In this document: piece by piece, positions 19,140 through 34,735 of the stretch
Numbering within the stretch: the stretch's first letter is position 1
How the letters are laid out: every line of letters begins with the position of its first letter
Source of the DNA: Chelativorans alearensis
GTDB taxonomy: Bacteria; Pseudomonadota; Alphaproteobacteria; Rhizobiales; Rhizobiaceae
Reading direction: 5' to 3'
Assembly: GCF_010993735.1 (NCBI RefSeq)
Contig: NZ_WQNI01000001.1
Location: 1 to 64,000, forward strand
Length of the DNA stretch: 64,000 nt
Notes under the pieces: model-generated
What the model was told of the DNA's origin: nothing
The model's database searches: none
What the model saw: only the letters and a program-made list of their open reading frames with translations
Position numbers and translations under genes: made by a program

Positions 19140-19604
19140 CTACTCCACCAGCTTCCACAGAAGCGGCAGAAGCTGCTCCCGGCCGCCAGGCCCAAGCTTG
19201 CGCGCAAAATGCTCTTCGTGTGCGGCCTGAAGCTGCCGTGCCTTGCCGAGCAGTGCCCTGCCTTCCTTCGTCAGATGCAGCGCGTAGGAGCGGCGGTCCT
19301 TCTTGGAGGGGCGGCGCTCGATCAGGTTCCGCTTCTCCAGGTGGTCGACCATCGTCACGAAATTGGTACGCTGGACACCCAGCGCCGCGCTTACCTCGGA
19401 CTGGTTGAGACCGGGGTTCTCGTCGATGATGATGAGGGCCGAGAAATAGGCTGGCCTCAAGTCGACGGTCTCCAGTGTGCGGATGAAGTCGTCGAAGATG
19501 ACGAGTTGGGCGCGGCGCAGGGCGTATCCGATAAAGCCCGGAAGAGGGCCGAGACTGACGCCGTTGGGCGCTGCGGTTGCGCCGCGGTCTTCGCTATTGT
19601 CCAT
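19140..19604 (-). CDS. MarR-family transcriptional regulator
   Basis: A 154-residue winged-helix regulator. The recognition region (GLNQSEVSAALGVQRTNFVT) and the wing with basic residues (LIERRPSKKDRRSYALHLT) are clear. The start at 19604 has GGGAGGA about ten bases upstream; a longer form starting at 19628 is possible. MarR proteins with this layout usually repress aromatic-acid or stress genes and release DNA on ligand binding. It is divergent from the CUT2 operon, and a 37-base operator-like palindrome lies between them. Whether it or the SorC-type regulator binds there is open. Confidence 0.85.
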   Translation of the reverse strand: MDNSEDRGATAAPNGVSLGPLPGFIGYALRRAQLVIFDDFIRTLETVDLRPAYFSALIIIDENPGLNQSEVSAALGVQRTNFVTMVDHLEKRNLIERRPSKKDRRSYALHLTKEGRALLGKARQLQAAHEEHFARKLGPGGREQLLPLLWKLVE

Positions 19605-19738
19605 AAACAAGCGGTCCTCCCAAACCATCCGCGCCGCAATAGCACACTATAGCCGGCTCTCAAGCCTTCACCAGACCCGCGGCATTCCTCCTGGCTCCAG
19701 GTTTTGGGCCCCGGGAACGACGGCCACCGTGTGCGCTC

Positions 19739-19769: not shown

Positions 19770-19806
19770 AAACAACAAATGAGCATATTTCGCTCATTTG
19801 TTGTTT
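19770..19806. promoter_or_regulatory. Perfect 15-bp inverted repeat, strong operator candidate
   Basis: AAACAACAAATGAGC (19770-19784) is repeated exactly in inverse at 19792-19806, separated by seven bases (ATATTTC). It is A/T-rich against a GC-rich background. It ends 27 bases before the binding-protein start codon, downstream of a plausible promoter, as expected for repressor binding. No T-run in a terminator position is present. Candidates for binding are the divergent MarR protein and the operon's own SorC-type regulator. Confidence 0.8.
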
Positions 19807-19833: not shown

Positions 19834-20811
19834 ATGTTCGGGTTTTCAAGGATTGTTTCGGTGCTTGCCGCATTGCCGCTTGCCGCGGTGGTGGGCGCGG
19901 GAGTGGCGGGTGCGGAGGGGCTGAAGATCGGCTTCAGCCAGGTCACGCTGCAGTCGCCTTTCTACGTGCAGCTCAAGAACGGTGCCGAGGCGGCGGCCGA
20001 GGCGGGCGACGACACGCTGATCTTCCTCGACGCCAATGGCGACGTCAGCAAGCAGAACAACGATATCCAGGATCTCATCACCCAGGGCGTGGATGTGGTC
20101 ATCATCAACCCGGTCAACCCGGATGCGGTGGTGCCTTCGCTGGAGGCGGCGACAGCGGCGGGCATTCCCGTCATTACCGTCGACCGCAGCATCAACGGCG
20201 AGGGCGTCACCGCCCATATCGGCCGCGACAACAAGAACATGGGAGCGCTCGTCGGCAAGGCCGTGGTCGAGCGCCTGAAGGCCGACGGTGTCGAGGGGGC
20301 GAAGATCATCGAGATCCAGGGCGACGCCGGGGGCGCCGTCATGATGGACCGCCGCGACGGCTTCCATGCCTCGCTCGAAGGGTCGGGCCACACGATCCTC
20401 GAAGGGCCGTATGCCGAATATATCCGCGCCAATGCCGTGGTCGCCATGCAGGATCTTCTGCAGGCGCACACCGATGTGAAAGTGGTCTATGCGCACAATG
20501 ACGATATGGCGCTCGGCGCCCTGCAGGTGCTGCAGGAAAGCGGCCGCGACGACGTGCTGATCGCCGGCGTCGACGGGCTGTCCGAGGCGCTCAGTGTGAT
20601 GGAGGCGGGCGGCAACTACATCGCCACCACGCTCAACGACCCGCAATATCTGGGCGACGTGACCATCCAGGTGGCGCGCGAGGCGGCGGCCGGCAAGAAG
20701 GTGCCCGGCTTCGTCGATGCGGGCACCACCCTGGTGACACCGGAGAATGTGGGCGAGTTCCCGCACGATGCGCTGTTCGCGGAATACCGGCCCGAGGTTC
20801 TGGCCAGGTAA
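19834..20811 (+). CDS. CUT2 (Rbs-like) sugar-binding periplasmic protein
   Basis: A 325-residue Peripla_BP_4 family protein. A signal peptide spans about residues 1-26 (VLAALPLAAVVGAGVAGAEG). The mature N-terminus LKIGFSQVTLQSPFYVQLKN is typical of ribose/xylose/AI-2-type binding proteins. Later segments NPVNPDAVVPSLEAA and the hinge motifs follow the family. GGGAGGAG precedes the ATG at 19834; the frame extends upstream through the operator but is not coding there. It delivers a sugar or polyol to the permease encoded further down the operon. Confidence 0.92.
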   Translation: MFGFSRIVSVLAALPLAAVVGAGVAGAEGLKIGFSQVTLQSPFYVQLKNGAEAAAEAGDDTLIFLDANGDVSKQNNDIQDLITQGVDVVIINPVNPDAVVPSLEAATAAGIPVITVDRSINGEGVTAHIGRDNKNMGALVGKAVVERLKADGVEGAKIIEIQGDAGGAVMMDRRDGFHASLEGSGHTILEGPYAEYIRANAVVAMQDLLQAHTDVKVVYAHNDDMALGALQVLQESGRDDVLIAGVDGLSEALSVMEAGGNYIATTLNDPQYLGDVTIQVAREAAAGKKVPGFVDAGTTLVTPENVGEFPHDALFAEYRPEVLAR

Positions 20812-20822
20812 GGCTCCCAAGA

Positions 20823-20859
20823 CCGCACGCACGGTGGGCTAGCTCCGCCGTGCGCGCGG
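20823..20859. repeat. Hairpin between binding-protein and dehydrogenase genes
   Basis: CCGCACGCACGGTGG (20823-20837) pairs with 20845-20859 in 13 of 15 positions plus a G-U pair, with a seven-base loop. It lies directly after the binding-protein stop codon and has no T-run. Transcript stabilisation or attenuation is likely. Confidence 0.7.
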
Positions 20860-20897
20860 CCCACGGGTCTCTCAAAAGATTGAAACAGGAACAGACA

Positions 20898-21920
20898 ATG
20901 CGCGCAGCAGTGCTCCATCGTCCCGGCGATATCCGCGTCGAGGACGTCCCCGCCCCCCGGCTTCATGACAACCACGCCCTGGTGCGCGTGGCCTCGGTCG
21001 GGGTCTGCGGTTCGGACCTGCCGCGCATGCTGATCAAGGGCGCGCACCGGATGCCGCTCATCTGCGGGCACGAGTTCTCCGGCCATGTCGCGGAGGTCGG
21101 CGAGGGGTTGGAGGGGTTCACGGTCGGCGATCTCGTCGTCGTGCCGCCGATGCTGCCGTGCCATGCCTGCGACCAGTGCCTGAAAGGGCAGTTCTCGCGC
21201 TGCCGCGACTACGACTATTTCGGCTCGCGCCGCGACGGCGCCTATGCCGAATATGTCTCGGTCCCCGCCTCAAACCTCCTGAAGGTGCCGGCCGGTGCCG
21301 ACCCCAGGGCGGTCGCCATGGCCGATCCCGCCTCCATCGCCCTTCATGCCATCTGGAAGGCGGGCGGGATCGCCGTCGGCCAGCGCGGCGGCGTGATCGG
21401 CTGCGGGCCCATTGGCCTTTTCGCCATCCAGTGGATGCGGCTCATGGGGGTGAGCGAGGTCGTGGCGGTCGATGTTTCCGAGCACAAGCTGGCGTTGGCT
21501 AGGGAGGCGGGCGCCACCCACACTATCCTGGCCGGCGACGGGGCGACCGGCGACCTGCCGTGCGACGTGATTATCGAGGCGGCGGGAAACACCGCCGCCA
21601 TCGCCGCTGCCGTGCGGCTTGCGGCCCCCGGCGGGCATGTCGTCTTCATCGGCATTCCCGTTGGCGAGGTGGCGCTGCCCAACACCGCCTTCCAGCATTT
21701 CCTGCGCCAGGAGGTTTCGCTCCACGGCTCCTGGAATTCCTTCGGCGCCCCCTTTCCGGGGCCGCAATGGGCCGCCACGCTGGAAGCGCTTGGCACCGGC
21801 CGTCTGAAATGGGAGTTTCTCATCAGCCACGATCTGGACCTTGCCGAATTGCCCGGTATGTTCGCGCGGTTCCGCGACGAGCCGGACATGTTCTATTCCA
21901 AGGTCATGTTCCGGCCGTAG
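20898..21920 (+). CDS. Zinc-dependent medium-chain dehydrogenase, GatD-like
   Basis: A 340-residue MDR-family dehydrogenase. The catalytic-zinc region VGVCGSDL..CGHEFSGHV is followed by the structural-zinc cysteines (PCHACDQCLKGQFSRC), the segment FGSRRDGAYAEYV that resembles galactitol-1-phosphate 5-dehydrogenases, and the Rossmann motif GCGPIGL. It should oxidise a polyol or polyol phosphate with NAD+. The ATG at 20898 follows CAGGA; the longer frame is spurious. It sits between the binding protein and the kinase, so it probably works on the imported substrate before or after phosphorylation. Substrate unproven. Confidence 0.88.
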   Translation: MRAAVLHRPGDIRVEDVPAPRLHDNHALVRVASVGVCGSDLPRMLIKGAHRMPLICGHEFSGHVAEVGEGLEGFTVGDLVVVPPMLPCHACDQCLKGQFSRCRDYDYFGSRRDGAYAEYVSVPASNLLKVPAGADPRAVAMADPASIALHAIWKAGGIAVGQRGGVIGCGPIGLFAIQWMRLMGVSEVVAVDVSEHKLALAREAGATHTILAGDGATGDLPCDVIIEAAGNTAAIAAAVRLAAPGGHVVFIGIPVGEVALPNTAFQHFLRQEVSLHGSWNSFGAPFPGPQWAATLEALGTGRLKWEFLISHDLDLAELPGMFARFRDEPDMFYSKVMFRP

Positions 21921-21967
21921 CATTGTGCGTCGGCCCGGCGGGGCGTGCGTGGTGGGAGGAGAGACAG

Positions 21968-23482
21968 ATGACACTTGTCCTGGGGTTCGATCTGGGAACG
22001 GGAAGCGTCCGCGCCGGCGTCTACGACCTTGACGGCGGCACGATGCGCGGCAGCGCGGAAGAGCGCTACGAGACCGTCTACCCGCGCCCGGGATGGGCGG
22101 AACAGCAGCCGGAGGAGTGGTGGAAAGCCCTTGTCAGTGCCGGCAGGCGGGCGGTGGAGGCGGCGGGCAGCCGCGATATCGCCGCCGTCTCAGTGGCCGC
22201 AACGGCATCCACCGTCGTCGCCTGCCGGCGCGACAGCACGCCGGTCTACCCGGCTATACTGTGGATGGACTGCCGGGCCACACGCGAGGCGCATGAGACC
22301 GGCAGGCTCGCCCACCCCGTCATGGCCTATAGCGGCGGCGAGGACGCCGCCGAATGGCTGGTGCCCAAGGTGATGTGGCTGGCGCGGCACGAGCCGGAAG
22401 TGTTCGCCCGGGCCGAGGTGATGTGCGAGGCCCTCGACTACATCAACTACCGGCTCTGTGGCGAATGGGCCGGCTCGCGCATGAACGCCACCTGCAAGTG
22501 GAACTACGACGCGGCTGCCGAGCGCTACGTGCCGGAGATATACGAGAGCCTGGGCGTTGCCGCGCTTATCGACAAGCTGCCGTCACGCATCGTGCCGGTT
22601 GGCGGTGTGGTGGGCCATGTGCGCGGCGAGATCGCGGCCGAACTCGGCCTCACCTCCACGCCGCTTTTGACGCAGGGCGGTATCGACGCGGAGATGGGGA
22701 TGCTGGGCGCGGGGACGATCGATCCCGGCAGCATGCTCATCGTCGGCGGCACATCGGTCGCTCACCTCACGCATCTCGATGCGCAGCGCCCGCTGCCCGG
22801 CTTCTGGGGACCCTATCCCAATGCGCTGATGGACGGGCGCTGGCTGGTCGAGGGTGGGCAGGTCTCGGCCGGCTCCATTCTCAACTGGCTGGCGGGGAAG
22901 ATTTTCGGGCTGGACGAGGCCGGCCATCACGCGCTCATCGCCGAAGCGTCCCGGCTTGTCCCGGAGAAGACGGGCCTGATGGTGCTCGACTACTGGATGG
23001 GAAACCGCACGCCCTATCGCGATGCCGGTCTGCGCGGCGCCATCCTGGGCCTCTCACTCGGCCATGGCCGGGCGGAGATATACCGTTCGGCGGTCGATGC
23101 GGTGGCGCTCGGCACGGTCAACGTCCTGCGGGCGCTGGAGAAGGAAGGCGTCTTGATCGAGCGGATCGTCATGGGGGGCGGCATCTGCCACAATCCGCTG
23201 TGGCTGCAGGCGACGGTGGACGCGCTCGGCCGGCCGGTGCAGCTGGTGCGCGAAGAGAACCTCTCACTGCTCGGTGCCGTTGTCAGCGCGGCCTGCGGCC
23301 TCGGCCTCTACCCGGACCTTGCTTCCGCCTCGCACGCGCTCGCCGTCGGCGGATCGGCGATGATGCCGGAGCCGGAGCGGACATCCTGGTACGACGGCGC
23401 TCTGGCCCGCTACGACGAGCTCACCAGCACGCTCGCGCCCACCTTGCACCGGCTTTCGGCATCGGAGGACGGCGCCCCATGA
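21968..23482 (+). CDS. FGGY-family carbohydrate kinase
   Basis: A 504-residue kinase with the FGGY N-terminal phosphate-binding motif (LGFDLGTGSVRAGVYD) and substrate-domain segments (WMDCRATREAHETG). The C-terminal ATPase domain contains GGTSVAHL and IVMGGGICHNPLWLQ. Members phosphorylate sugars or polyols such as xylulose, ribulose, erythritol or AI-2. Start ATG 21968 follows GGAGGAGAGAC. The stop overlaps the regulator start by four bases. The presence of a kinase in a CUT2 operon implies that the imported substrate is phosphorylated in the cytoplasm; which hydroxyl is unknown. Confidence 0.9.
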   Translation: MTLVLGFDLGTGSVRAGVYDLDGGTMRGSAEERYETVYPRPGWAEQQPEEWWKALVSAGRRAVEAAGSRDIAAVSVAATASTVVACRRDSTPVYPAILWMDCRATREAHETGRLAHPVMAYSGGEDAAEWLVPKVMWLARHEPEVFARAEVMCEALDYINYRLCGEWAGSRMNATCKWNYDAAAERYVPEIYESLGVAALIDKLPSRIVPVGGVVGHVRGEIAAELGLTSTPLLTQGGIDAEMGMLGAGTIDPGSMLIVGGTSVAHLTHLDAQRPLPGFWGPYPNALMDGRWLVEGGQVSAGSILNWLAGKIFGLDEAGHHALIAEASRLVPEKTGLMVLDYWMGNRTPYRDAGLRGAILGLSLGHGRAEIYRSAVDAVALGTVNVLRALEKEGVLIERIVMGGGICHNPLWLQATVDALGRPVQLVREENLSLLGAVVSAACGLGLYPDLASASHALAVGGSAMMPEPERTSWYDGALARYDELTSTLAPTLHRLSASEDGAP

Positions 23483-24468
23483 GCGAGGCCAGAACCCCCG
23501 TTCGTCTGCCTTCCGACGAGCAGCGCGAGTATCTGATGGTGCGCGCGGCAAAGCTCTATTACGACCTGCAGCGCACGCAGGGCGAGATCGCGAAGGAATT
23601 GGGCCTCACCCGCTGGCAGATCGGCCGGCTGCTCACCGAGGCGCGTGAATTGGGCGTCGTGCGTATCGAGATCACCCCGCGCTCCAGCCGCGCCACCGAC
23701 CTTGAAGTGGCGTTGCAGCAGGCGTTCGGGCTTAGCGATGCCGTGGTCGTGCCCCATGGAGAAAGCCACGACGGCGACGTGCTTCTGGAGGCGGTGGCGC
23801 AGGCGGCCAGCAAATATATCGCCGGGCTCAAGCCTCAGGTCGCGCTCATGGGCGTTTCGTGGGGGCGCACCATGTCCGCGGTCGCCCGTTTCCTGCCGGC
23901 CAACTGGAATCCGGGGCTGCACGTGGTGCTCGTCAACGGCGCGACGAATTTCCGCTCGACGTCGGATCGCGTGATCGCCGTGGCGGAAGAGTTCGCGCGC
24001 AGCGCCAACGGCATGGCGACGCTGCTGCCGGTGCCGGCCATCGTCGGCAAGAAGAGCACGCGCGAGGTGCTGGAGCAGGATCCGGTGATCGAGAAGGTGC
24101 TGGAGCTTGCCGCCGAGGCGGAGGTCGTGTGCTTCAGCATGGGCGGTCTTTCGCATGAATCCGTGCTGGTGACCTCCGGCTATATCGATGCGGACCATAT
24201 CGATAGGCTGGGAGAAGAGGGCGCCGTCGGCGATATTCTGGGCCGTTTCATCGATGCGTCGGGGGCCGTCGTCGACGAGGAACTCGACGGCCGCACCATC
24301 GGCCTGCGCCTCGATCTCCTGAAGAAGAAGAAGCGTTCCATCGGCATCGCCTCGGGGCCGGAGAAGCACGCCGTGACGCTTGCCGCGCTCAAGGCCGGCT
24401 ACCTATCGGTCCTCATCACCGACGAAACCACGGCGCGCGCCGCGTTGGAGGGTGCGGATGGCCGATGA
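23479..24468 (+). CDS. SorC/DeoR-type sugar-binding transcriptional regulator
   Basis: A 329-residue regulator. The N-terminal helix-turn-helix (TQGEIAKELGLTRWQIGRLL, about residues 34-53) is followed by a sugar-phosphate-sensing domain similar to SorC, EryD and LsrR (MGVSWGRTMSAVARFL). Such proteins respond to the phosphorylated product of the operon's kinase. It overlaps the kinase gene by four bases and the ATPase gene by 11, so it is made along with the pathway, giving feedback control. Its operator is probably in the promoter of the same operon. Confidence 0.9.
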   Translation: MSEARTPVRLPSDEQREYLMVRAAKLYYDLQRTQGEIAKELGLTRWQIGRLLTEARELGVVRIEITPRSSRATDLEVALQQAFGLSDAVVVPHGESHDGDVLLEAVAQAASKYIAGLKPQVALMGVSWGRTMSAVARFLPANWNPGLHVVLVNGATNFRSTSDRVIAVAEEFARSANGMATLLPVPAIVGKKSTREVLEQDPVIEKVLELAAEAEVVCFSMGGLSHESVLVTSGYIDADHIDRLGEEGAVGDILGRFIDASGAVVDEELDGRTIGLRLDLLKKKKRSIGIASGPEKHAVTLAALKAGYLSVLITDETTARAALEGADGR

Positions 24469-25951
24469 CGTGCTTGTCGTGGAGAACGTATCGAAGCGTT
24501 TTCCCATGAACATCGTCGCGCTGGAGCAGGCCTCGCTGACGGTGCGCCGCGGCGAGATCCATTGCCTTTTGGGCGCCAACGGCGCGGGAAAGTCGACGTT
24601 GTTGAAGATGGTCGCCGGCGCGCTGAAGCCGTCGGGCGGGCGCATTAGCCTCGAGGGCCAGGCGCTCGATCTGCACTCGCCGGCCGATGCCGCGCGCGCC
24701 GGCATCTCCATGATCTATCAGGAGCTCGACCTCGTCCCCCAGCTCACCGTGGAGCAGAACCTGTTCCTCGGCCATGCGCCGGGCAAGGCCGGCATCATCG
24801 ACCGCCGCACGCGCAGCGAGCGTGCCCACGAAGCGCTCCGGCGCATCGGCGCGCGCTTTTCGCCGAGGGCGCGGGTGGAGCAGCTTTCGGTGGCCAACCA
24901 GCAGCTCACCGCCATCGCCCGCTCGCTGACCATGAACGCCAAGATCATCATCATGGACGAGCCCTCCGCCGCGCTCAACGAGACGGAGCTGGAAGCCGTG
25001 TTCGCGGTGATCCGCGACCTCGTGCGCCAGGGGGTCTCGATCCTCTATGTCAGCCACCGGCTGGCCGAGCTGCGCGAGATCGGCGACCGTGTCACCGTTC
25101 TGCGCGGCGGGCGCACCATCGCCACCTACGACGTCGCCGATACGCCGGACGCGGCGCTGGTGGAGGCGGTGATCGGCAAGGCGCGCACGCTGGTCGAGCG
25201 CAAGGCGCGGCCGCCGGTCGCCGGCGAGGTGGCGTTGTCGGTCAACAAGATGCGCGGTGCGGATGGGCTTATGGTGGAGGATTTCGCCGTGCGCTGGGGC
25301 GAGGTGACGGGGCTCACCGGCCTCAACGGCTCCGGCCGCACCACGTTCCTGCGTTCGCTGTTCGGCGATCTAAGGTTCGAGGGTAAGGTGGAGGTCGGCG
25401 GCCGGCCTTACCGCCCCACCCATCCCGCGCATGCGATCCGGCGCGGCCTCGGCCTGGTGCCGGAGAGCCGCAAGACCCACGGCCTCGTTCTCGATGCGCC
25501 GATCTACAAGAACGCCACGCTCGCCTCGCTCGGCGGCCGCTTCACCATGAGCCACCACCACGAGCGGGAGAGGGCGCGGCCGGTGCTCGACCGGCTGTCG
25601 ACCAGATATGCCGACCTGGACCAAGCCGTCATGCAGCTTTCGGGCGGCAACCAGCAGAAGGTGGTGCTCGCCAAGTGGGTGGTGAACGGGGCGAAGATCC
25701 TGCTGCTCGACGAGCCGAGCCGCGGGCTCGACGTGGGTGCGAAGGCCGATCTTTACGCGCTGGTGGAGAAGCTGGCGGCCGACGGCGCCGCCGTGATCGT
25801 GGCGAGCAGCGAGCTCGATGAACTCTACGCGGCCTGCGATTCCATCTGGGTGTTCCACGAAGGCCGGATCCTCGACCGCTACGATCCGTCCGTCACCGGC
25901 CGCGAAACGATACTGAAGGCGACCATTCTTGGAGACCAGCATGTCCACTGA
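24458..25951 (+). CDS. CUT2 sugar ABC transporter ATP-binding protein (RbsA-like)
   Basis: A 497-residue protein with two fused nucleotide-binding domains. The first has an intact Walker A (LGANGAGKSTLLK) and Walker B (IIIMDEPSAALNE). The second has a degenerate Walker A (LNGSGRTTFLRS, Arg for Lys) with signature LSGGNQQKVVLAKW and LLLDEPSRGLD. Asymmetric domains of this kind are normal for RbsA/XylG/LsrA. Start ATG 24458 lies inside the end of the regulator gene. It overlaps the permease by 11 bases. Confidence 0.93.
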   Translation: MADDVLVVENVSKRFPMNIVALEQASLTVRRGEIHCLLGANGAGKSTLLKMVAGALKPSGGRISLEGQALDLHSPADAARAGISMIYQELDLVPQLTVEQNLFLGHAPGKAGIIDRRTRSERAHEALRRIGARFSPRARVEQLSVANQQLTAIARSLTMNAKIIIMDEPSAALNETELEAVFAVIRDLVRQGVSILYVSHRLAELREIGDRVTVLRGGRTIATYDVADTPDAALVEAVIGKARTLVERKARPPVAGEVALSVNKMRGADGLMVEDFAVRWGEVTGLTGLNGSGRTTFLRSLFGDLRFEGKVEVGGRPYRPTHPAHAIRRGLGLVPESRKTHGLVLDAPIYKNATLASLGGRFTMSHHHERERARPVLDRLSTRYADLDQAVMQLSGGNQQKVVLAKWVVNGAKILLLDEPSRGLDVGAKADLYALVEKLAADGAAVIVASSELDELYAACDSIWVFHEGRILDRYDPSVTGRETILKATILGDQHVH

Positions 25952-26939
25952 CAACGCGATCGCCGAACGCGCGCCGGCCCATCGGCGCCTTGCCAACCTT
26001 CTGATCGAGTACAACTTCATCGCCATCTTCGTGGTCGTGGTGGTGATCGCCGCCGCGCTCTCCGACAATTTCCTGACCTTCGTCAACATCGCCAACCTGT
26101 TCCAGCAGGCGGCCGTCGTGGGCGTGGTGGCGATCGGCATGACGTTCGTGATCCTCACCGGCAACATCGACCTGTCGGTGGGCTCGCTGACCGCGCTCTG
26201 CGGCATGGTGGTGGCTGTACTGATGGCGGCGGGATGGGACCCGGCGCTGGCCGTCGTGGCAACCGCTCTGGTGGGTCTTTCCTGCGGGGCCGCGATGGGG
26301 GCGACGAGCGCCTATGGCCAGGTGCCGAGCTTCATCGTCACGCTCGCCGGCCTCGTCTCCTTCCGCGGCATCACCTACCTCCTGACGGACGGCGTGCCGG
26401 TGAGCGGGCTGCCGCCGTCCTTCGCCGCCATCTCGTCCTCGGTCGTTCCCATCCTGCCCGGGCTTAACCTGACCTCGATGGCGCTGATCTTCATTTGCCT
26501 GTGCGTCGCCGGCGGGCTGGTGCTGCGGTTCACCGTGTTCGGCGAGTATGTCTACGCCACGGGCGGCAACCCGGAGGCCGCCCGCCTGTCGGGCCTGCCG
26601 ACGCGGCTGATGGTGACGGCCGTTTTCGCCATCTCCGGCGTGACGTCGGCCATCGCCGGCATTCTGCTCACCTCGCGTCTGCGCATCGGCCAGCCGACGG
26701 CGGCGCAGGGGCTGGAGCTCGATGCCATCGCCGCGGTGGTGCTGGGCGGCACCAGCCTCTTCGGCGGGCGCGGCAGTCTTCTCGGTACGTTCTTCGCCGT
26801 CATGCTCTTGCAGGTGCTGCGCAACGTTTTCAACCTTTTGGGGCTCGGATCGTTCTATCAAATGACGGTGACCGGCTTTATCATAGTCGCTGCCGTTCTG
26901 CTCAACCGTTTCATCGAGATGAGGAGGGGTCGCGGATGA
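25941..26939 (+). CDS. CUT2 sugar ABC transporter permease (RbsC-like)
   Basis: A 332-residue inner-membrane permease with eight to ten hydrophobic segments and the conserved GMTFVILTGNIDLSVGSLTAL motif region near residue 68. The C-terminal block LDAIAAVVLGGTSLFGGRGS is typical of RbsC/XylH. Start ATG 25941 follows GGAG by six bases. Only one permease gene is present, consistent with a homodimer as in Rbs, unlike the two-permease Lsr system. Its stop overlaps the aldolase start (ATGA). Confidence 0.92.
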   Translation: MSTDNAIAERAPAHRRLANLLIEYNFIAIFVVVVVIAAALSDNFLTFVNIANLFQQAAVVGVVAIGMTFVILTGNIDLSVGSLTALCGMVVAVLMAAGWDPALAVVATALVGLSCGAAMGATSAYGQVPSFIVTLAGLVSFRGITYLLTDGVPVSGLPPSFAAISSSVVPILPGLNLTSMALIFICLCVAGGLVLRFTVFGEYVYATGGNPEAARLSGLPTRLMVTAVFAISGVTSAIAGILLTSRLRIGQPTAAQGLELDAIAAVVLGGTSLFGGRGSLLGTFFAVMLLQVLRNVFNLLGLGSFYQMTVTGFIIVAAVLLNRFIEMRRGRG

Positions 26940-27946
26940 TCCTGCCGGAAAAGCACCCGACAATCAAAGCCGTCCCCGAGGCGGGAAGCGGGCCGCACGA
27001 GGTTCGCAATCGCGGCACGGCGCTGACCCCCGAATGGTTCGAGGACGTGGCGGTGAACCTTTCCGCCGCCGAGCGGCGGGCGGCGACGCTCACCACCCGG
27101 CGCTCGGTGAAGAAGGCGTGGCAGGCGGCGTGGCTGGTTCGCGCCATCACCTGCATCGACCTTACCACGCTTGCCGGCGACGACACGGCTGGCCGCGTGC
27201 GCCGGCTGTGCGCCAAGGCGAAGAAGCCGCTCTCCGACGAGCTGCTGACCGCCTTGGGGCTGGAGGAGGAGCGCATTACCACGGGCGCTGTCTGCGTTTA
27301 TCCCACCATGGTGCCGCACGCGGTGAAGGCGCTGGAGGGCTCGGGCGTTCCCGTGGCTTCGGTCGCCACCGGCTTTCCCGCGGGCCTTACGCCGCTGCCG
27401 CAGCGGCTTGCCGAAATCCGCTATGCGGTGGAGGCGGGGGCGGCGGAGATCGACATCGTGATCACCCGCGAATATGTGCTGACGCAGAACTGGCAGGCGC
27501 TCTATGACGAGGTTTCCGCCATGCGCGAAGCCTGCGGTCCCGCGCATCTGAAGACGATCCTGGCCACCGGCGACATCGCCACGCTGCGCAACGTCTACCG
27601 CGCCTCGATGGTGGCCATGCAGGCCGGCGCCGACTTCATCAAGACCTCCACGGGCAAGGAGGCGGTGAACGCCGTCCTGCCTGTCGGGCTCACCATGGTG
27701 CGGGCGATCCGCGACTATGGCGCGCTGTCGGGAGAGATCGTCGGCTTCAAGCCCGCGGGCGGCATGCGCACGGCCAAGGATGCGCTCTCCTGGCTCATCC
27801 TCATGAAGGAGGAACTCGGCACGGCCTGGACGATGCCCGACCGCTTCCGCCTCGGCGCCAGCTCCATGCTGGGCGACATCGAACGCCAGCTCGAACATTA
27901 CGCCACCGGGCGCTACTCCGCGTCCCACCGTCACGCACTCGCCTGA
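26936..27946 (+). CDS. deoC: Deoxyribose-phosphate aldolase family protein
   Basis: A 336-residue class I aldolase of the DeoC type. The Schiff-base lysine is Lys236 in FIKTSTGK, and the second active-site lysine is Lys272 in GFKPAGGM. An early acidic segment (AAEIDIVI) supplies the expected Asp. The chain is about 80 residues longer at the N-terminus than E. coli DeoC, as in the longer alphaproteobacterial/eukaryotic form. The enzyme splits a 2-deoxy-sugar phosphate into an aldehyde plus a triose phosphate. It is coupled to the permease and followed after eight bases by an aldehyde dehydrogenase, which would remove the aldehyde. Confidence 0.9.
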   Translation: MILPEKHPTIKAVPEAGSGPHEVRNRGTALTPEWFEDVAVNLSAAERRAATLTTRRSVKKAWQAAWLVRAITCIDLTTLAGDDTAGRVRRLCAKAKKPLSDELLTALGLEEERITTGAVCVYPTMVPHAVKALEGSGVPVASVATGFPAGLTPLPQRLAEIRYAVEAGAAEIDIVITREYVLTQNWQALYDEVSAMREACGPAHLKTILATGDIATLRNVYRASMVAMQAGADFIKTSTGKEAVNAVLPVGLTMVRAIRDYGALSGEIVGFKPAGGMRTAKDALSWLILMKEELGTAWTMPDRFRLGASSMLGDIERQLEHYATGRYSASHRHALA

Positions 27947-27954
27947 GGCCACTC

Positions 27955-30351
27955 ATGGAACAGATCAGGGATATCATGCGCACCATGGAATACGGGCCGG
28001 CCCCGGAGGCGGGCGAGGAGGTTGCCGCGTGGCTGAAGGCGCGCGCTGCCGGCATCGGCCATTTCATCGGCGGCAAGTTCGTCGCCCCGGGAAAGGAGCG
28101 CTTCGCGACGGTGAACCCGGCCACCGAGGCCGAGCTTGCCCGCGTGGCGCAGGGCAGCGAGGCGGAGGTGGACGCGGCGGTGAAGGCGGCGCGCGGGGCT
28201 TTCGCCAAATGGTCGAAGCTGCCGGGGCACGAGCGGGCGCGCTACCTCTACGCCATCGCCCGGCATATCCAGAAGCGCGAGCGTTTCTTCGCCGTGCTCG
28301 AAAGCATGGATAACGGCAAGCCGATCCGCGAGACGCGCGACATCGACATTCCGCTGGTGGCACGGCACTTCTACCACCATGCCGGCTGGGCGGAGATGGT
28401 GGAGAGCGAGTTCGAGGGCTTCTCGCCGGTCGGCGTCTGCGGGCAGATCATCCCGTGGAACTTCCCCCTCCTGATGCTCGCCTGGAAGATCGCGCCGGCA
28501 CTTGCGGCGGGCAACACGGTGGTCCTGAAGCCGGCAGAGCAGACGCCGCTGACGGCGGCCGCCTTCGCCGAGATCTGCGAGGAGGTCGGCCTGCCGGCGG
28601 GCGTGGTCAACATCGTTCATGGCGACGGGCGCACGGGGGCTGCGATCACGGCGCACGAGGATATCGACAAGATCGCCTTCACCGGCTCGACGGAGGTCGG
28701 GCGCATCATCCGCGAGGCGCTGGCCGGTTCGGGCAAGAAGCTGTCGCTGGAGCTCGGCGGCAAGTCGCCCTTCATTGTCTTCGAAGACGCCGATCTCGAC
28801 GGCGCGGCGGAAGGCGTGGTGGATGCCATCTGGTTCAACCAGGGCGAGGTGTGCTGCGCGGGCTCGCGCATCCTCGTGCAGGAGGGCGTTGCCGAACGCT
28901 TCTACGACAAGCTGCGCCGGCGCATGGAGACGCTGCGCATCGGCGATCCGCTGGACAAGGGGATCGACGTCGGCGCCGTCGTCTCGGCGGAGCAACTTGA
29001 GCGCATCTCGACGCTGGTGAAAAAGGGCGAGGAAGAGGGCGGTACGCTCTGGCGGGCGCCGGGCGCGCTGCCGGAGAAGGGCTATTTCTTCTCGCCGTCC
29101 TTCTTCACCGAAGTAGACCCCGCCTCGACGGTGTGCGGGGTGGAGATCTTCGGCCCGGTCGCCGTCGCCATGACGTTCCGCACCCCGGCGGAGGCGGTGG
29201 AACTCGCCAACAACACGCGCTACGGCCTTGCAGCCTCCATATGGTCGGAGAACATCAATCTGGCGCTTGATGCCGCGGCCAAGGTGAAGGCCGGCGTCGT
29301 GTGGGTGAACTGCACCAACATGCTCGACGCGGGCTCCGGCTTCGGCGGCTACCGCGAGAGCGGTTTTGGCCGCGAGGGCGCGCGCGAGGGGCTTTACGAA
29401 TATCTGGTGAGCGACGTCGAGAAGGCGCTGAAGCCGGCCAAGGAGCAGGCCGTCTTCACGCCACGCGGCGCGCCGGAAGAGGAGCGCCGCTTCGCCGGCC
29501 TCGGCCGTATCGACCGCACGGCGAAGAACTATGTGGGCGGGAAGCAGGCGCGGCCGGACGGCGGTTACTCTTATGACGTCATCGGCAAGGGCGGCGCCGT
29601 CATCGGCCAGGCGCCGCTCGGCAACCGCAAGGACATCCGCAACGCGGTCGAGGCGGCGGCGAAGGCCGGCGGCTGGGGCGGCGTGACGGCGCACAACCGG
29701 GCGCAGGTGCTCTACTATGTGGGCGAGAACCTCGACGCGCGGCGCGGGGAGTTCGAGGCGCTGCTGTCGGAGAGCACCGGCCAGAGCGCCAAGGCCGCTT
29801 CCGCCGAGTTCGATGCGGCGCTCAAGCGCGTCTTCTACTACGCCGCGCAGGCCGACAAATATGACGGCGCAGTGCATGCCACCAAGTCGCGGCATGTGAC
29901 GCTGGCCATGAACGAGCCGTGGGGCGTGATGGGGATCGTGGCGCCCGAAGAAGCGCCGCTCGCCGCCTTCGTGTCGCTCGTGCTGCCGGCGATCGCCATG
30001 GGCAACCGGGTGGTGGCCGTTCCCTCGACCCGGCATCCGCTGATCGCCGCCAATCTTTACCAGGTCTTCGATACGTCTGACGTGCCGGGCGGTGTGGTGA
30101 ACATCGTCTCCGGCGAGAAGGACGTTTTGGCGAAGACGCTGGCCGAGCACGACGCGGTGGCGGCCATGTGGTATTTCGGCGGCAAGGAAGGCAGCGCCAT
30201 GGTCGAACGCGCCTCCTGCGGCAACCTCAAGGCCACCTGGGTGAGTGACGGCAATGCGCGCGACTGGCTGGACGATCGCCAGGCGCGCGGACGGGAGTTT
30301 CTGCGCCGGGCGACGCAGGTGAAGAACATCTGGGTTCCTTACGGGGAGTGA
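27955..30351 (+). CDS. Two-domain aldehyde dehydrogenase of the ALDH16 type
   Basis: A 798-residue protein. Residues about 30-490 form a complete aldehyde dehydrogenase with IPWNFPLLML, ELGGKSPFIVF (general-base Glu) and FNQGEVCCAGSR (nucleophilic Cys). Residues about 505-798 are a second, shortened ALDH-like domain (NYVGGKQARP, PWGVMGIVAPEE, GGVVNIVSG). It lacks both the Cys motif and the ELGGK glutamate; the corresponding region reads SCGNLKATWVS. One active and one inactive domain is the hallmark of ALDH16. It probably oxidises the aldehyde released by the adjacent DeoC enzyme. Last gene of the CUT2 operon. Confidence 0.9.
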   Translation: MEQIRDIMRTMEYGPAPEAGEEVAAWLKARAAGIGHFIGGKFVAPGKERFATVNPATEAELARVAQGSEAEVDAAVKAARGAFAKWSKLPGHERARYLYAIARHIQKRERFFAVLESMDNGKPIRETRDIDIPLVARHFYHHAGWAEMVESEFEGFSPVGVCGQIIPWNFPLLMLAWKIAPALAAGNTVVLKPAEQTPLTAAAFAEICEEVGLPAGVVNIVHGDGRTGAAITAHEDIDKIAFTGSTEVGRIIREALAGSGKKLSLELGGKSPFIVFEDADLDGAAEGVVDAIWFNQGEVCCAGSRILVQEGVAERFYDKLRRRMETLRIGDPLDKGIDVGAVVSAEQLERISTLVKKGEEEGGTLWRAPGALPEKGYFFSPSFFTEVDPASTVCGVEIFGPVAVAMTFRTPAEAVELANNTRYGLAASIWSENINLALDAAAKVKAGVVWVNCTNMLDAGSGFGGYRESGFGREGAREGLYEYLVSDVEKALKPAKEQAVFTPRGAPEEERRFAGLGRIDRTAKNYVGGKQARPDGGYSYDVIGKGGAVIGQAPLGNRKDIRNAVEAAAKAGGWGGVTAHNRAQVLYYVGENLDARRGEFEALLSESTGQSAKAASAEFDAALKRVFYYAAQADKYDGAVHATKSRHVTLAMNEPWGVMGIVAPEEAPLAAFVSLVLPAIAMGNRVVAVPSTRHPLIAANLYQVFDTSDVPGGVVNIVSGEKDVLAKTLAEHDAVAAMWYFGGKEGSAMVERASCGNLKATWVSDGNARDWLDDRQARGREFLRRATQVKNIWVPYGE

Positions 30352-30357
30352 GGCGGC

Positions 30358-30600
30358 TCAGTCGGGGCGGTAGCCTCTCTTCAATTTCTGCGCCAGCACG
30401 CGGGCCAGAGCCTTTCCGGCAGCCTCTTCGTCCGCGTGAAGGTCCAGCCGCTCTCTTCCCCAGGTGCCGATGCGGCCCCAATTGCGCCTGAGGGCGACGG
30501 CGCCGAAGAGCGTCGGCTCCACCGACAGGGCATAGAAGCGCGCCATGTTTCGGGCAGGATCGATGCGTTTGAGGAGGAGGGGATGGCGGGCGGTGTGCAT
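30358..30600 (-). CDS. Small WGR-domain protein
   Basis: An 80-residue protein consisting almost entirely of a WGR domain: FYALSVEPTLFGAVALRRNW followed by the name-giving W-G-R-I-G-T-WGR segment. WGR domains bind nucleic acid in larger proteins, but the role of stand-alone bacterial copies is not known. It is convergent with the ALDH gene, with six bases between stops. The start at 30600 is the likelier of two ATGs, because the upstream one (30636) adds a Gly/Asp stretch; neither has a good ribosome-binding site. Confidence 0.75.
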   Translation of the reverse strand: MHTARHPLLLKRIDPARNMARFYALSVEPTLFGAVALRRNWGRIGTWGRERLDLHADEEAAGKALARVLAQKLKRGYRPD

Positions 30601-30747: not shown

Positions 30748-32601
30748 TCAGGTGTTCACCACCAGCACCCGCTCGTCCGGCGGCTCGGCATAGAGCGCCT
30801 CCACATCCGCCGCCCGGTGCTCCAGCACGGCGCGCTGGTTGATCGAGCCCTTGTCGGTGACCTCGCCGGCGTCGATGGAAGGTAGAGTTTCGAGCAGGAT
30901 CGCCCGCATGACGCGGGTGGAGGAGCCGCCGGGGAGTTTGGCAAGGCTGTCGAGATGGGCCTTGATGGCGCCGCGCACGGCCGGATGGCGCACGATCTCG
31001 GCCAGGGTGGCGTTGGCGGGAAGATCGCCGGCGAGCCGACGGCATTCCTGCGGGTCGACGATGACCAATGCCGTCAGATAGTCGCGGTTGATGGCGGCAA
31101 GCACGACGTCGCGGATAAGAGGGGCGGCGTGGGCGATGAGGCGGGCGCGCAGGGGCCCGACGCTGACCCAGGTGCCGCTTGCCAGCTTGAAATCCTCCGA
31201 GATGCGGCCGTCGAAGAAAAAGCCTTCCTCCGGACGGCGCTCGTCAACGAATTTCAGGGCATCGCCGAAGCGGTAGAAACCTTCCTCGTCGAAAGCATTC
31301 GCCGTCTTGTCCGGCTCGCGCCAGTAGCCGGGCGTAACGTTCGGCCCCTTCACCCGCGCCTCCAGCTTGCCGTCGACGGGGAAGAGCTTCAGCCGGTTGC
31401 CGGGCACGGGAACGCCGACGCGACCGGAAGCGGCGGTGTGCGGCGTGCAGCTGAGCGAGAAGGGCGCGGTTTCGGTGGCGCCGAGGCCGGTGAGGATGGG
31501 AACGCGGGCGCCGATCGAGGCGACGGCAAGCGCGTCGAGCGCGTTCCAGACATGCGGCGAGAGCCCGGCCCCGGCAAAGAAGAGCGCCTGGACGCGTGAG
31601 AAGAAGTGGTCACGTAGCGCCTTGTCTTCCTTCAGGAACGGCACCAGCGCTTCATACCCCTTGGGCACGTTGAAATAGATCGACGGCGCGATCTCGCGCA
31701 GGTTTTTCACCGTGGCGGCGATGCCGGTGGGCGTCGGCAGCCCGTCGTCGATATAGAGAGAGCCGCCATTATAAAGCACGAGGCCGATATTGTGGTTGCC
31801 GCCGAAGGTGTGGTTCCAGGGCAGCCAGTCGATGATGGTGGGGCCGTCTTTCAGGAAGGTGAGCGCGTAGCGCAGCATTTCCTGGTTGGCCGTCAGCATG
31901 CGTTGGGTGGTGATGACGGCCTTGGGGCCTCCGGTCGAGCCGGAGGTCATGAGGAATTTGGCGATGGTATCCGGGCCGACTTTCGCGCGGGCGCGGTCGA
32001 GAGCGGCGTCGGGCCCGGCATTGTAAAGTGTGTAGAGCGGGACCGCCTCGCGGCCTTCCGGGGCGCCGCGGGTGAACACAGTCGGCGCGTCGGCCGGCCA
32101 GACGGCATCGAGCGCCTTCGAGAAAGCCGTGCCGTCGGCCACGAACACGAGGCCGGGGGTGATGAGCTTGAAGATGTGCTTCAGCTTGCCGTGGTCGGTG
32201 GAGATCAGCGAATAGGCGGGCGAGACGGGGGCGTGCGGTACGCCGATATGCATGGCGGCGAGCGCGATGAGCGCATGGTCGATGCCGTTGCCCGACAGGA
32301 TCGCCAGCGGCCGCTCTTGTGAAAGCCCGAAGGGCAGAAGAGCCGTGCCCAGGCGGCGGACCGCCTCGAGTGCCTCGCGGTAGGTGATCCTGCGCCAGCC
32401 TTCGCCCTGACGCTCGGCCATGAAAACCTTGTCCGGCCTTTCCAATGCCCATCTCTCAAGACAATCGCACATGGAGGGCGCATAGTCGGGAAGCGTGTTC
32501 ACCGGCGTCACGAAGATGGCGCCGTCGTCGCGGCGCTGCAGCGTGATGTCGAGATTGCCGAACGGGACGTCCCGGAACGGGCTTGAAACCTGTGCACTCA
32601 T
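30748..32601 (-). CDS. Feruloyl-CoA synthase (hydroxycinnamate-CoA ligase)
   Basis: A 617-residue AMP-forming acyl-CoA synthetase. The phosphate loop [12 protein letters not shown] is near residue 185, the adenine region [10 protein letters not shown] near residue 380, and the conserved Asp/Arg segment [19 protein letters not shown] further on. Length and the N-terminal region fit feruloyl-CoA synthases, which activate ferulate, coumarate or caffeate. The ATG at 32601 follows GGGAGGAG. It is divergent from a crotonase gene across a 173 bp promoter region with an inverted repeat, which fits a hydroxycinnamate side-chain pathway. Confidence 0.88.
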
Positions 32602-32715
32602 GCCACCACTCCTCCCAAGCGGATAATGCATCTCCGCCCCTTGTCTGCCCACACCTTTTCCCGTCCCGCAACGCTCTTCCGATGCCGGCGTTCCTGGGGC
32701 GAGGCCATCGATACA

Positions 32716-32734
32716 TTGTTATTGAATATAACAA
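32716..32734. promoter_or_regulatory. Candidate MarR-type operator TTGTTAT-n5-ATAACAA
   Basis: A perfect seven-base inverted repeat with a five-base spacer sits in the divergent promoter region of the CoA-synthase and crotonase genes. Size and AT-richness resemble sites of MarR repressors that sense hydroxycinnamoyl-CoA in alphaproteobacteria. No regulator gene adjoins it; the nearest MarR gene in view is at 19.1 kb. Confidence 0.6.
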
Positions 32735-32774
32735 AATTCTGCGCTATCATTCAAGCCAATGCATGAGGCCGTCG

Positions 32775-33557
32775 ATGACCGAGATTTCCGCCTTTGACGA
32801 CGTGCTGTCTGTCCGCGTGGAGGAGGGCATCGCCCACCTTACGCTGACGCGCCCCGGAAAGCAGAACGCGCTCAACGACTTGGTGATCGATGCGCTCGAC
32901 CGCTTCTTTTCCAAGCCCGGCGAGGATGTGCGCGTGGCGGTGCTTTCGGGCGCGGGAAACCACTTCTCGGCCGGTCTCGATCTCGGCGAGCATGTGGAGC
33001 GGAGCGCGGCCGAGACCATGCATCACTCGCGCAACTGGCACCGCGTGATGGACCTGATCCAGTTCGGCGGGCTGCCGGTGGTCTCCGCGCTTCATGGCGG
33101 GGTGATCGGCGGCGGGCTGGAATTGGCGGCGGCTACGCATGTGCGGGTGGCAGAGCCTTCGGCGTTCTTCCAGTTGCCCGAGGGGCGGCGCGGCATCTTC
33201 GTGGGCGGCGGTGCCTCGGTACGCATCGGCCGCATCCTCGGCCCCGACCGGCTGACGGAGATGATGCTGACGGGCCGCAAATACACGGCCGACGAGGCGC
33301 TTTCCCTCGGTCTGGCGCACTATCGCGTGGGCGAGGGGGAGGCGCTAGCCAAGGCCGAGGAGATGGCGCGCCGGATCGCCGGCAACGCGCAGCTCTCCAA
33401 CCACCTCATCATCCAGAGCCTGGCGCGCATCGATGACATGTCGCGGACGGACGGGCTGTTTACCGAAAGCCTCGCCGCGGCGCTTTCGGTCTCCAGCGAG
33501 GACGCGCGGGAGGGACTGACGGCGTTTCTCGAAAAGCGCTCGCCGCGCTTCCGCTAG
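32775..33557 (+). CDS. Enoyl-CoA hydratase/isomerase (crotonase) family protein
   Basis: A 260-residue crotonase. The oxyanion-hole segments are SGAGNHFSAGLDL and HGGVIGGGLELAAA; the two acid/base glutamates are in GGLELA and QLPEGRRG. It is expected to hydrate, and perhaps cleave, the cinnamoyl-CoA made by the divergent synthase. It lacks the particular motifs I know for bona fide feruloyl-CoA hydratase-lyase, so hydratase only is possible. ATG 32775 is favoured over ATG 32763 because GAGG lies six bases before it. A TRAP transporter follows on the same strand. Confidence 0.85.
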   Translation: MTEISAFDDVLSVRVEEGIAHLTLTRPGKQNALNDLVIDALDRFFSKPGEDVRVAVLSGAGNHFSAGLDLGEHVERSAAETMHHSRNWHRVMDLIQFGGLPVVSALHGGVIGGGLELAAATHVRVAEPSAFFQLPEGRRGIFVGGGASVRIGRILGPDRLTEMMLTGRKYTADEALSLGLAHYRVGEGEALAKAEEMARRIAGNAQLSNHLIIQSLARIDDMSRTDGLFTESLAAALSVSSEDAREGLTAFLEKRSPRFR

Positions 33558-33669
33558 GAAGGTGAAGCAGAACGGAGGCTGCTGCGAGGAAACGGGAATA
33601 GGACTGCATCTGACCCCGCGTGGAGGAGGCGAAGACCCCAGTACGCGGGCTCGAACCAGGGAGGAAACG

Positions 33670-34728
33670 ATGACTGACAAGAGACGATCCATCACACGCC
33701 GCCGCACGCTCGGCCTTATCGGCGGCGCGCTCGCCGCCCCCGCCTATATCCGCGACCTGCACGCGGCCGAGGTGACCTTGCGCCTGTCGCATATGCTGCC
33801 GCCGGTCGCGCCGATGCACGCGCAGGTGCTGGAGCCGTGGGCAAAAGAGATCGGCGAGAAGAGCGAGGGGCGCATCGACGTCCAGATCTTCCCGGCCATG
33901 CAGCTCGGCGGCAAGCCGCCGCAGCTTGCCGACCAGGTGCGCGACGGTATCGCCGACATCGCCTGGACGCTGGTGGTCTACACGCCCGGCCGCTTTCCCC
34001 TGTCGGAGACCGGCAGCCTGCCCTTCATGGTCACGAACGCGGAGAACACCTCCGTCGCGCTGCACAAGTTCATGGAGGAAATGGGCATGGACGAGTACAA
34101 GGGCGTCAAGCCGCTCGCCTTCCATGCCCATGCGCCGGGGAAATTCCACATGCGCGAGAAAGCCATCGAAAAGGCTGCGGACATGAAGGGCCTGAAGATC
34201 CGCGCGCCCAACGAGACCTTCGGCAAGGCGCTCGAGATTCTGGGGGCCGAGCCGGTTTTCTTTCCCGTCACGGAAATGGCGGTGGGGCTTGCCAACGGCG
34301 TCATCGACGGCACGCTCCTGCCCTACGAAGTGGTGCCCGTCTACAAGCTTCAGGAGCTGACGAGCGTGCACTGCGCGGCGGCCCCGGTCGGCCGCGGCTT
34401 CTATACGAACACCTTCAACGTGCTGATGAACGAACGGGTCTACGAAGGGCTGCCCGACGATCTGAGGGCGGTCGTCGACGAGCATTCGGGTGTCGAGTTC
34501 GCACGCCGCATCGGCGCCAATTTCGATACTTTCGAAGAGGTGGGCCGCAAGCTTTGCGAGGAGCAGGGAAACACCTTCGTGGAGGTGCCGGGCGAGGAGG
34601 TGGAAAGCTGGCGCGAGATGGTGCAGCCGGTCGTCGACGACTGGATCGCCATGCTCAACGACAAGGGCATCGACGGCGCCCGTGCGGTCGAGCGCCTCAA
34701 CGCGCTGATCGACGCAGAGAGCGCGTGA
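33670..34728 (+). CDS. TRAP transporter solute-binding protein (DctP family)
   Basis: A 352-residue periplasmic receptor. The N-terminus has consecutive arginines before a hydrophobic stretch (SITRRRTLGLIGGALAAPAY), possibly a Tat signal. The mature part starts EVTLRLSHMLPPVAPMH. The conserved Arg that clamps a substrate carboxylate is probably in LKIRAPNE. The start at 33670 follows GAGGAAA. Together with the two following permease genes it imports an organic acid. Location beside the CoA-synthase/crotonase pair points to a hydroxycinnamate or similar aromatic acid (inference). Confidence 0.9.
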   Translation: MTDKRRSITRRRTLGLIGGALAAPAYIRDLHAAEVTLRLSHMLPPVAPMHAQVLEPWAKEIGEKSEGRIDVQIFPAMQLGGKPPQLADQVRDGIADIAWTLVVYTPGRFPLSETGSLPFMVTNAENTSVALHKFMEEMGMDEYKGVKPLAFHAHAPGKFHMREKAIEKAADMKGLKIRAPNETFGKALEILGAEPVFFPVTEMAVGLANGVIDGTLLPYEVVPVYKLQELTSVHCAAAPVGRGFYTNTFNVLMNERVYEGLPDDLRAVVDEHSGVEFARRIGANFDTFEEVGRKLCEEQGNTFVEVPGEEVESWREMVQPVVDDWIAMLNDKGIDGARAVERLNALIDAESA

Positions 34729-34735
34729 CGCACGC

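Follow-up and report, generated by a model that had tools for sequence, protein, structure and literature searches.

A conserved bacterial operon for the breakdown of a sugar-like compound, possibly a 2-deoxypentitol, that may converge on 2-deoxyribose-5-phosphate

Which compound is consumed by an operon that combines a sugar importer, a GatD-like dehydrogenase and a carbohydrate kinase with an aldolase and an aldehyde dehydrogenase? Such an operon is found at positions 19834-30351 of the window, a 64,000-nucleotide stretch of Chelativorans alearensis DNA, where a first-pass annotation had listed this set of functions. Family matches bear the list out, including the presence of just one permease: eight genes follow each other on the + strand with tight spacing (intergenic distances of 86, 47, -4, -11, -11, -4 and 8 bp in gene order) downstream of a palindrome. 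The Pfam assignments given below, except those for FGGY, were made on longer mechanical ORFs.

19770..19806, no strand, palindrome AAACAACAAATGAGC-N7-GCTCATTTGTTGTTT, probable SorC operator, upstream of the SBP gene
19834..20811, + strand, CUT2 solute-binding protein (SBP; Peripla_BP_4, E 2e-57)
20898..21920, + strand, GatD-like zinc dehydrogenase (MDR; ADH_N/ADH_zinc_N)
21968..23482, + strand, FGGY carbohydrate kinase (FGGY_N/FGGY_C)
23479..24468, + strand, SorC-family regulator (PF04198, E 4e-61)
24458..25951, + strand, CUT2 ATPase with two ABC domains (ABC_tran, 2 stretches)
25941..26939, + strand, CUT2 permease (BPD_transp_2, E 1e-35)
26936..27946, + strand, 2-deoxyribose-5-phosphate aldolase (DeoC), long type (DeoC family; TIGR00126)
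27955..30351, + strand, ALDH16-type two-domain aldehyde dehydrogenase (Aldedh; full-length match to 6mvr)

Neither promoter-like sites (1 versus 1.0 in shuffles) nor terminator-like sites (4 versus 5.3) are in excess; one terminator-like site lies at 30364-30377, directly 3' of the ALDH16 gene.

This operon is a real, conserved bacterial family for the uptake and breakdown of a sugar-like compound, as the same gene set recurs in too many genomes to be a product of chance, which supports the earlier view of one coherent catabolic operon. Among the 80 best of 95 confirmed kinase-homologue loci, with the relatives' genes grouped from codon-usage gene calls, the dehydrogenase is present at 76, the SorC regulator at 72, a DeoC of the host's type at 55 (and another DeoC at 9 more), ALDH16 at 52 and an orthologous importer at 40. 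At 64/80 loci the kinase thus has a DeoC of either kind no more than 9 kb away, and the chance of such proximity is below 1% per locus given 16 DeoC among 16 genus genomes of 3.3-5.8 Mb. At 9/80 loci with 10 kb present on both sides no DeoC is nearby, and all nine genomes encode one elsewhere. The family is widespread among relatives of rhizobia and of Rhodobacter/Paracoccus, Acetobacteraceae and Actinobacteria, the latter probably including M. smegmatis, and its member genes are annotated one by one in public genomes. Our literature search found neither this operon nor deoxyribitol catabolism described, consistent with the earlier statement that no described pathway has exactly this set. In S. 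meliloti, SMb20854-56 appear as transporter rows in an excerpt of PMC2597717 and SMb20855 in an expression table excerpted from PMC12542648; from gene position, SMb20852/53 would be the kinase and dehydrogenase.

We propose, with a probability of about 0.5, that the operon controls its own expression and serves to degrade a small sugar or polyol, for which a 2-deoxypentitol or close relative is the likeliest candidate, by a route converging on 2-deoxyribose-5-phosphate. The best-understood part of this route is its end, and the last two enzymes point to a deoxy-sugar or deoxy-sugar-alcohol as substrate. DeoC scores above the curated cut-off of the DERA model TIGR00126 (151.4 versus 117.3 bits), and the DERA catalytic residues K236, K272 and D173 (Schiff-base lysine, second lysine and catalytic aspartate), which we take to match their E. 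coli equivalents, are invariant in 48/48 sequences. The 798-aa ALDH16 shows the layout of a classical ALDH with a C-terminal second domain, about 770-800 aa in all, and its nearest solved ALDH by sequence is the 767-aa 6mvr (aligned over 4-797, E 9.7e-273), presumably the Loktanella ALDH16. Its catalytic cysteine is kept in 49/49 sequences; human ALDH16 is described as lacking this cysteine in an excerpt of PMC8160307.

The two genes also travel together outside the kinase loci. DeoC adjoins ALDH16 in 20/23 ALDH16 loci sampled within the order and in 12/12 DeoC loci from those genus members that lack the kinase. At locus L105 the pair lies beside RbsD and a ribokinase homologue, and at L108 it sits within a deoxynucleoside operon that also encodes PNP, Cdd, DeoA, DeoB and Upp; there, DeoC (59% identical) and ALDH16 (61% identical) of the same kind stand side by side, and the kinase and dehydrogenase are replaced by phosphorylases, Cdd, DeoB and Upp along with a different importer. 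Together with the DERA match and the 48/48 conserved residues, these contexts make convergence on 2-deoxyribose-5-phosphate most likely. DeoC would then cleave this compound to glyceraldehyde-3-phosphate and acetaldehyde, and ALDH16 would oxidize acetaldehyde to acetate; the presence of the pair inside a deoxynucleoside operon also makes the earlier suggestion of aldol cleavage to triose phosphate plus an aldehyde oxidized by ALDH16 the best reading. This suggests a physiological role for bacterial ALDH16 in acetaldehyde removal after DERA. A ketose-1-phosphate route, in which a DeoC-family aldolase would yield dihydroxyacetone phosphate (DHAP) and glycolaldehyde or lactaldehyde for ALDH16, resembles the fucose and rhamnose pathways in combining an FGGY kinase, an aldolase and an ALDH, but is very improbable: DeoC passes the DERA model with its catalytic residues kept, the same residues occur in DeoC of kinase-less loci including nucleoside operons, and the one short-type replacement DeoC examined (L088) likewise scores above the DERA cut-off.

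The importer, kinase and dehydrogenase would act earlier in the route. The SBP, which with the ABC components would take up the substrate, is 59% identical to 4yv7 of M. smegmatis (MSMEI_3018), which we take to be a glycerol-bound structure, and it resembles ribose-binding proteins while staying below the RbsB equivalog cut-off (NF007936; 182.4 versus 337 bits). An excerpt of PMC12027616 describes MSMEG_3091-3094 of the same species as transporter, sugar-binding regulator, FGGY kinase and oxidoreductase, a tag order that matches our gene types, though MSMEG_3095 is called a second FGGY kinase and no substrate is named there; we infer that 4yv7 belongs to this locus. The FGGY kinase would phosphorylate the substrate and the dehydrogenase would oxidize it, possibly in that order. 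The kinase retains its catalytic aspartate in 73/73 sequences, and its top models (ribulokinase, xylulokinase and pentulose kinase) all stay below cut-off. The best NCBIfam model of the dehydrogenase is GatD, galactitol-1-phosphate 5-dehydrogenase (NF007642), at 248.8 bits with a cut-off of 550; its zinc-site histidine and glutamate and the NAD-binding aspartate are kept in 72/72 sequences, the zinc cysteine in 69/72 (the other three being gaps) while at three of the four structural-zinc positions 67/72 have a cysteine. GatD proper has a polyol phosphate as its substrate. A specific version of our proposal, which we put forward as tentative, is import of a 2-deoxypentitol or similar reduced deoxy-sugar, FGGY phosphorylation and conversion of the resulting polyol phosphate to 2-deoxyribose-5-phosphate by the GatD-type dehydrogenase, followed by DERA and ALDH16, in a route common to Alphaproteobacteria and Actinobacteria. 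The gene set kept across the 80 loci speaks for this route, which nevertheless needs an aldehyde, whereas GatD-type enzymes usually give ketones. If correct, it gives a widespread operon a substrate class that can be put to the test, and it indicates a possible new way for compounds to enter the deoxyribose-phosphate pool.

Two known systems that the first-pass annotation had set apart from this operon were compared with it. The Lsr operon shares FGGY, SorC, CUT2 and DeoC-superfamily gene types, the basis for an AI-2 uptake and processing function, but all Lsr models tested match well below cut-off (bits/cut-off: LsrK 135.8/528, LsrR 135.5/486, LsrB 28.6/384, LsrA 336.8/586, LsrC 157.9/388), and unlike Lsr with its two permeases this operon has a true DERA, one permease, a dehydrogenase and ALDH16, leaving the AI-2 reading with hardly any credibility. 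The erythritol operon encodes an EryB-type dehydrogenase of the GlpD family, which Pfam and NCBIfam labels reveal nowhere among the operon proteins, and as far as these labels tell this is probably not an erythritol operon.

Could the substrate simply be 2-deoxy-D-ribose? DeoK is a PfkB-type kinase, and the FGGY protein would have to be a deoxyribokinase unlike it, with the dehydrogenase in a side role. The DeoC-ALDH16 end, the SBP's likeness to ribose-binding proteins and a deoxyribonucleoside regulator as nearest solved relative of the SorC protein agree with this idea, and the deoK-deoC pathway shares the logic of a kinase followed by DeoC yielding acetaldehyde and G3P (excerpt of PMC6365646), but differs from our operon with its FGGY kinase, zinc dehydrogenase and CUT2 importer. 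The idea seems unlikely given the dehydrogenase at 76/80 loci and the regulator's loss of the DeoR lysine (see below). Furthermore, at L057 and L092 a DeoC-ALDH16-RbsD-ribokinase set adjoins ADH-FGGY-SorC, which argues that the FGGY kinase handles something other than deoxyribose, as the 2-deoxypentitol route would have it.

A further question is whether DeoC-ALDH16 belongs to the pathway at all. In an ordinary polyol or pentulose operon, where a polyol is turned into a ketose and this into its phosphate, the pair would serve nucleosides and merely share the transcript; we consider this rather unlikely, even if the kinase's nearest models speak for it. The operon DeoC is the host's only one, the host nucleoside operon contains none in the 19.9 kb read, and nine loci have no DeoC nearby, all of which favors this reading over the 2-deoxypentitol route. 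So does the persistence of DeoC-ALDH16 in genus members without the kinase, some with operon remnants (L141). Locus L017 of C. salis likewise retains the pair with the kinase intact; it was rejected as a minimal kinase-DeoC-ALDH16 operon and not counted as support, since an ADH 3' remnant marks it as decayed, and the genome has no ADH homologue at E <= 1e-40. Conversely, no isomerase or epimerase is found among the eight genes by family labels, and DeoC has apparently been recruited to the kinase locus at least three times, as the main long clade, as the L057/L070/L092 DeoC nested among those of kinase-less loci (support 0.991) and as the short type. Of the 64 DeoC-bearing kinase loci, 33 were chosen by hand, and 31 genomes carrying these were searched: 14 encode more than one DeoC, in line with the 2-deoxypentitol route, and 17 a single one, which counts against it. 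With no other DeoC in the host and none in the part of its nucleoside operon read, DeoC-ALDH16 probably also takes part in deoxynucleoside breakdown there.

The regulator bears on the substrate as well. Its nearest solved relative, 8r7y, is the deoxyribonucleoside regulator DeoR of Bacillus subtilis, likewise of the SorC family, but our protein stays below the Bacillus-type DeoR equivalog cut-off (NF053881; 235.6 versus 420 bits). In 69/69 sequences, Asn153 occupies the column of the DeoR effector-binding lysine, which presumably forms a Schiff base with deoxyribose-5-phosphate. With this replacement, we consider it unlikely that the regulator senses the aldehyde of deoxyribose-5-phosphate covalently as DeoR does; the asparagine fits an effector other than an open-chain aldehyde. 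In the 2-deoxypentitol route, the SorC protein would be retuned from the deoxyribose-phosphate aldehyde to the polyol phosphate. It would sit on the upstream palindrome as a repressor as long as no phosphorylated intermediate is bound to it. Sites of the CANATGNGCA-N5-TGCNCATNTG type (at least 12/16 positions) occur in 32/41 upstream regions, several of them from close relatives, versus about 1.3% of block-shuffled ones, with a consensus drawn up after viewing the sites.

The eight genes on the plus strand at 19834-30351 form a real and conserved catabolic operon that is apparently undescribed: the literature searched yielded no paper about it. The span proposed in the first-pass annotation is exact to the base, from the start codon of the binding protein (SBP) at 19834 to the end of the ALDH16 stop codon at 30351, and the gene families named there agree with Pfam and NCBIfam assignments. 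Neighboring genes overlap by 4, 11, 11, and 4 bp or are separated by 86, 47, and 8 bp, and the operon is preceded by the following features:

19140-19628, minus strand: MarR-family regulator gene, upstream of the operon and divergent
19770-19806: palindrome with 15-bp arms, 27 bp before the SBP start

Downstream, 30748-36609 holds genes for an AMP-binding enzyme (minus strand) and, on the plus strand, an enoyl-CoA hydratase and the TRAP transporter components DctP, DctQ, and DctM.

Comparison loci were fetched from genomes of named species by their kinase, the closest being that of Chelativorans xinjiangense (98%), and partners were called by identity thresholds. Among the best 80 of 95 confirmed loci, the dehydrogenase is present in 76, the SorC regulator in 72, long-type DeoC in 55, and ALDH16 in 52, while orthologous SBP, ATPase, and permease genes are found in 40 each. 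All seven partners occur in 26 of these 80 loci, and another arrangement (23/80) combines dehydrogenase, SorC, DeoC, and ALDH16 without the window-type importer. DeoC of either kind was not found in 16 of the 80 (7 where the sequence after the kinase is shorter than 5 kb and 9 with 10 kb on both sides), and all 9 genomes of the latter carry DeoC elsewhere. At nine loci, DeoC bears only a weak resemblance to that of the window; 8 of these form one cluster, whose one scored member (L088) reaches 207.5 bits in the model of 2-deoxyribose-5-phosphate aldolase (DERA; TIGR00126). The host genome comprises 5.70 Mb in 36 contigs. Within its genus, distribution is patchy, since the kinase is present in 4 of 16 genomes (host counted) compared to 15 of 16 for DeoC. 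In the part of PMC12027616 consulted, Mycobacterium smegmatis tags 3091 (transporter), 3092 (regulator), 3093 (FGGY kinase), and 3094 (oxidoreductase) match the order of the window operon, but 3095 is labelled a second FGGY kinase where this order would place the SBP. The window SBP shares 59% identity with the SBP of structure 4yv7 (M. smegmatis MSMEI_3018).

Sequence and context give good support to the DERA/ALDH16 end of the route, but not to any substrate. The window DeoC scores above the DERA cut-off (151.4 versus 117.3 bits), and its catalytic lysines, aspartates, and cysteine are unchanged in 48 of 48 sequences. ALDH16 (E <= 1e-180) occurs in 23 of 121 sampled genomes of the order, host counted. 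Among 23 loci taken from the 22 non-host genomes, DeoC adjoins ALDH16 in 20 going by gene labels (none seen at L115, L116, and L120) and the window-type kinase is present in 2 (L099 and L121, the latter with ALDH16 in two overlapping pieces). In genus members lacking the kinase, ALDH16 adjoins DeoC at 12 of 12 DeoC loci (11 genomes). Partners at other loci of the order sample include those of a deoxynucleoside operon (L108; PNP, Cdd, DeoA, DeoB, and Upp all over model cut-offs, with a BMP-like binding protein scoring under its own) and RbsD with a ribokinase homologue (L105; the homologue of the latter at L110 passes the ribokinase model). Because of these partners and family knowledge, the DeoC-ALDH16 pair looks like a general module converting deoxyribose-5-phosphate to glyceraldehyde-3-phosphate and acetate. 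The ALDH16 counterpart at two actinobacterial loci (L085:7604-9978 and L087:8511-10791) is split into an ALDH and a distinct half-ALDH, which makes ALDH16 look like their fusion product.

Two observations argue that DeoC belongs to the pathway: it was recruited repeatedly, and at least two DeoC genes are present in 14 of 31 genomes searched (33 picked out of 64 DeoC-carrying loci, minus 2). When 66 DeoC sequences (50 belonging to kinase loci and 16 others) are placed in a tree, those of L057, L070, and L092 group with DeoC of kinase-less loci outside the main clade (support 0.991), and short-type DeoC is a further recruitment to the kinase locus. The kinase-locus label changes 7 times, compared to 14.6 on average after shuffling; labels are therefore also strongly clustered. 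Other observations argue against membership: the window operon holds the sole DeoC of the host, single DeoC genes are found in 17 of the 31 genomes, and kinase-less genus members keep a close DeoC-ALDH16 (L139, L140, and L143; 88-90% identical). In the host, DeoC therefore likely serves both the pathway and nucleoside breakdown. Also on this side, no DeoC was found in the 19.9 kb read of the host nucleoside operon on contig 13 (L137, G000:C13:36500-56400; ABC, permeases, Cdd, PNP, and DeoA), whereas the homologous L108 operon has DeoC-ALDH16 inside; the window operon apparently provides the missing activity. L141 (SorC and a permease fragment, no kinase) and L017 (a 3' remnant of the dehydrogenase gene and an intact kinase), which both retain DeoC-ALDH16, represent stepwise operon decay in Chelativorans.

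The best-matching models for the kinase are those of ribulokinase, xylulokinase, and FGGY pentulose kinases, though every score is below cut-off, which suggests a five-carbon substrate. GatD is the nearest model for the dehydrogenase, again below cut-off. No isomerase was found in the eight-gene set; a single oxidation plus a single phosphorylation should therefore give the DeoC substrate, a balance that a 2-deoxypentitol would fit. According to the part of PMC6365646 consulted, deoK-deoC was the only deoxyribose route known before the oxidative routes of that paper. At L057 and L092, a DeoC-ALDH16-RbsD-ribokinase set adjoins dehydrogenase-FGGY-SorC, and the FGGY kinase there therefore need not act on deoxyribose. 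The nearest solved relative of the SorC regulator is the deoxyribonucleoside regulator DeoR; the column of its effector lysine is Asn in 69 of 69 regulators (Asn153 in the window), which fits a non-aldehyde effector. The predicted SBP structure (mean pLDDT 90) matches ribose-type and other sugar-binding proteins, so the model does not fix the ligand.

An operator-like site, CANATGNGCA-N5-TGCNCATNTG, scores at least 12/16 in 32 of 41 upstream regions (the window and 40 loci, several closely related) compared to about 1.3% of block-shuffled regions, with a consensus drawn up after inspecting part of the same data. Actinobacterial loci score 15-16 (L089, L091, and L093) or only 10-12 (L087, L088, and L090). 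At importer-less loci, dehydrogenase-FGGY-SorC-DeoC-ALDH16 often follows a CUT2/XylB-like/SDR/SDR/GldA or an RpiR/520-aa MDR-like/XylB-like set. Sites directly upstream of the dehydrogenase (L060, L063, and L071; 12-13/16) or between dehydrogenase and kinase (L067; 15/16) suggest that this unit has its own promoter there; in the same scan, however, sites scoring 12-13 also lie inside genes, and most importer-less loci have no such site. At L144, from one genus genome, the window-type kinase is absent and the dehydrogenase is combined with DeoC-ALDH16 and a XylB-like kinase. MDR-like proteins of 513-523 aa (L059:5621-7192 and L144:13158-14696) have a recognizable ADH_N and a weak, widely separated ADH_zinc_N domain, and mostly accompany an RpiR regulator and XylB-like kinase, often adjoining a window-type operon. 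L096 (Sinorhizobium meliloti pSymB) and L097 (a Rhizobium leguminosarum plasmid) carry a cupin-type GPI, a XylB-like kinase, two SDRs, and GldA with the operon-type dehydrogenase-kinase pair.
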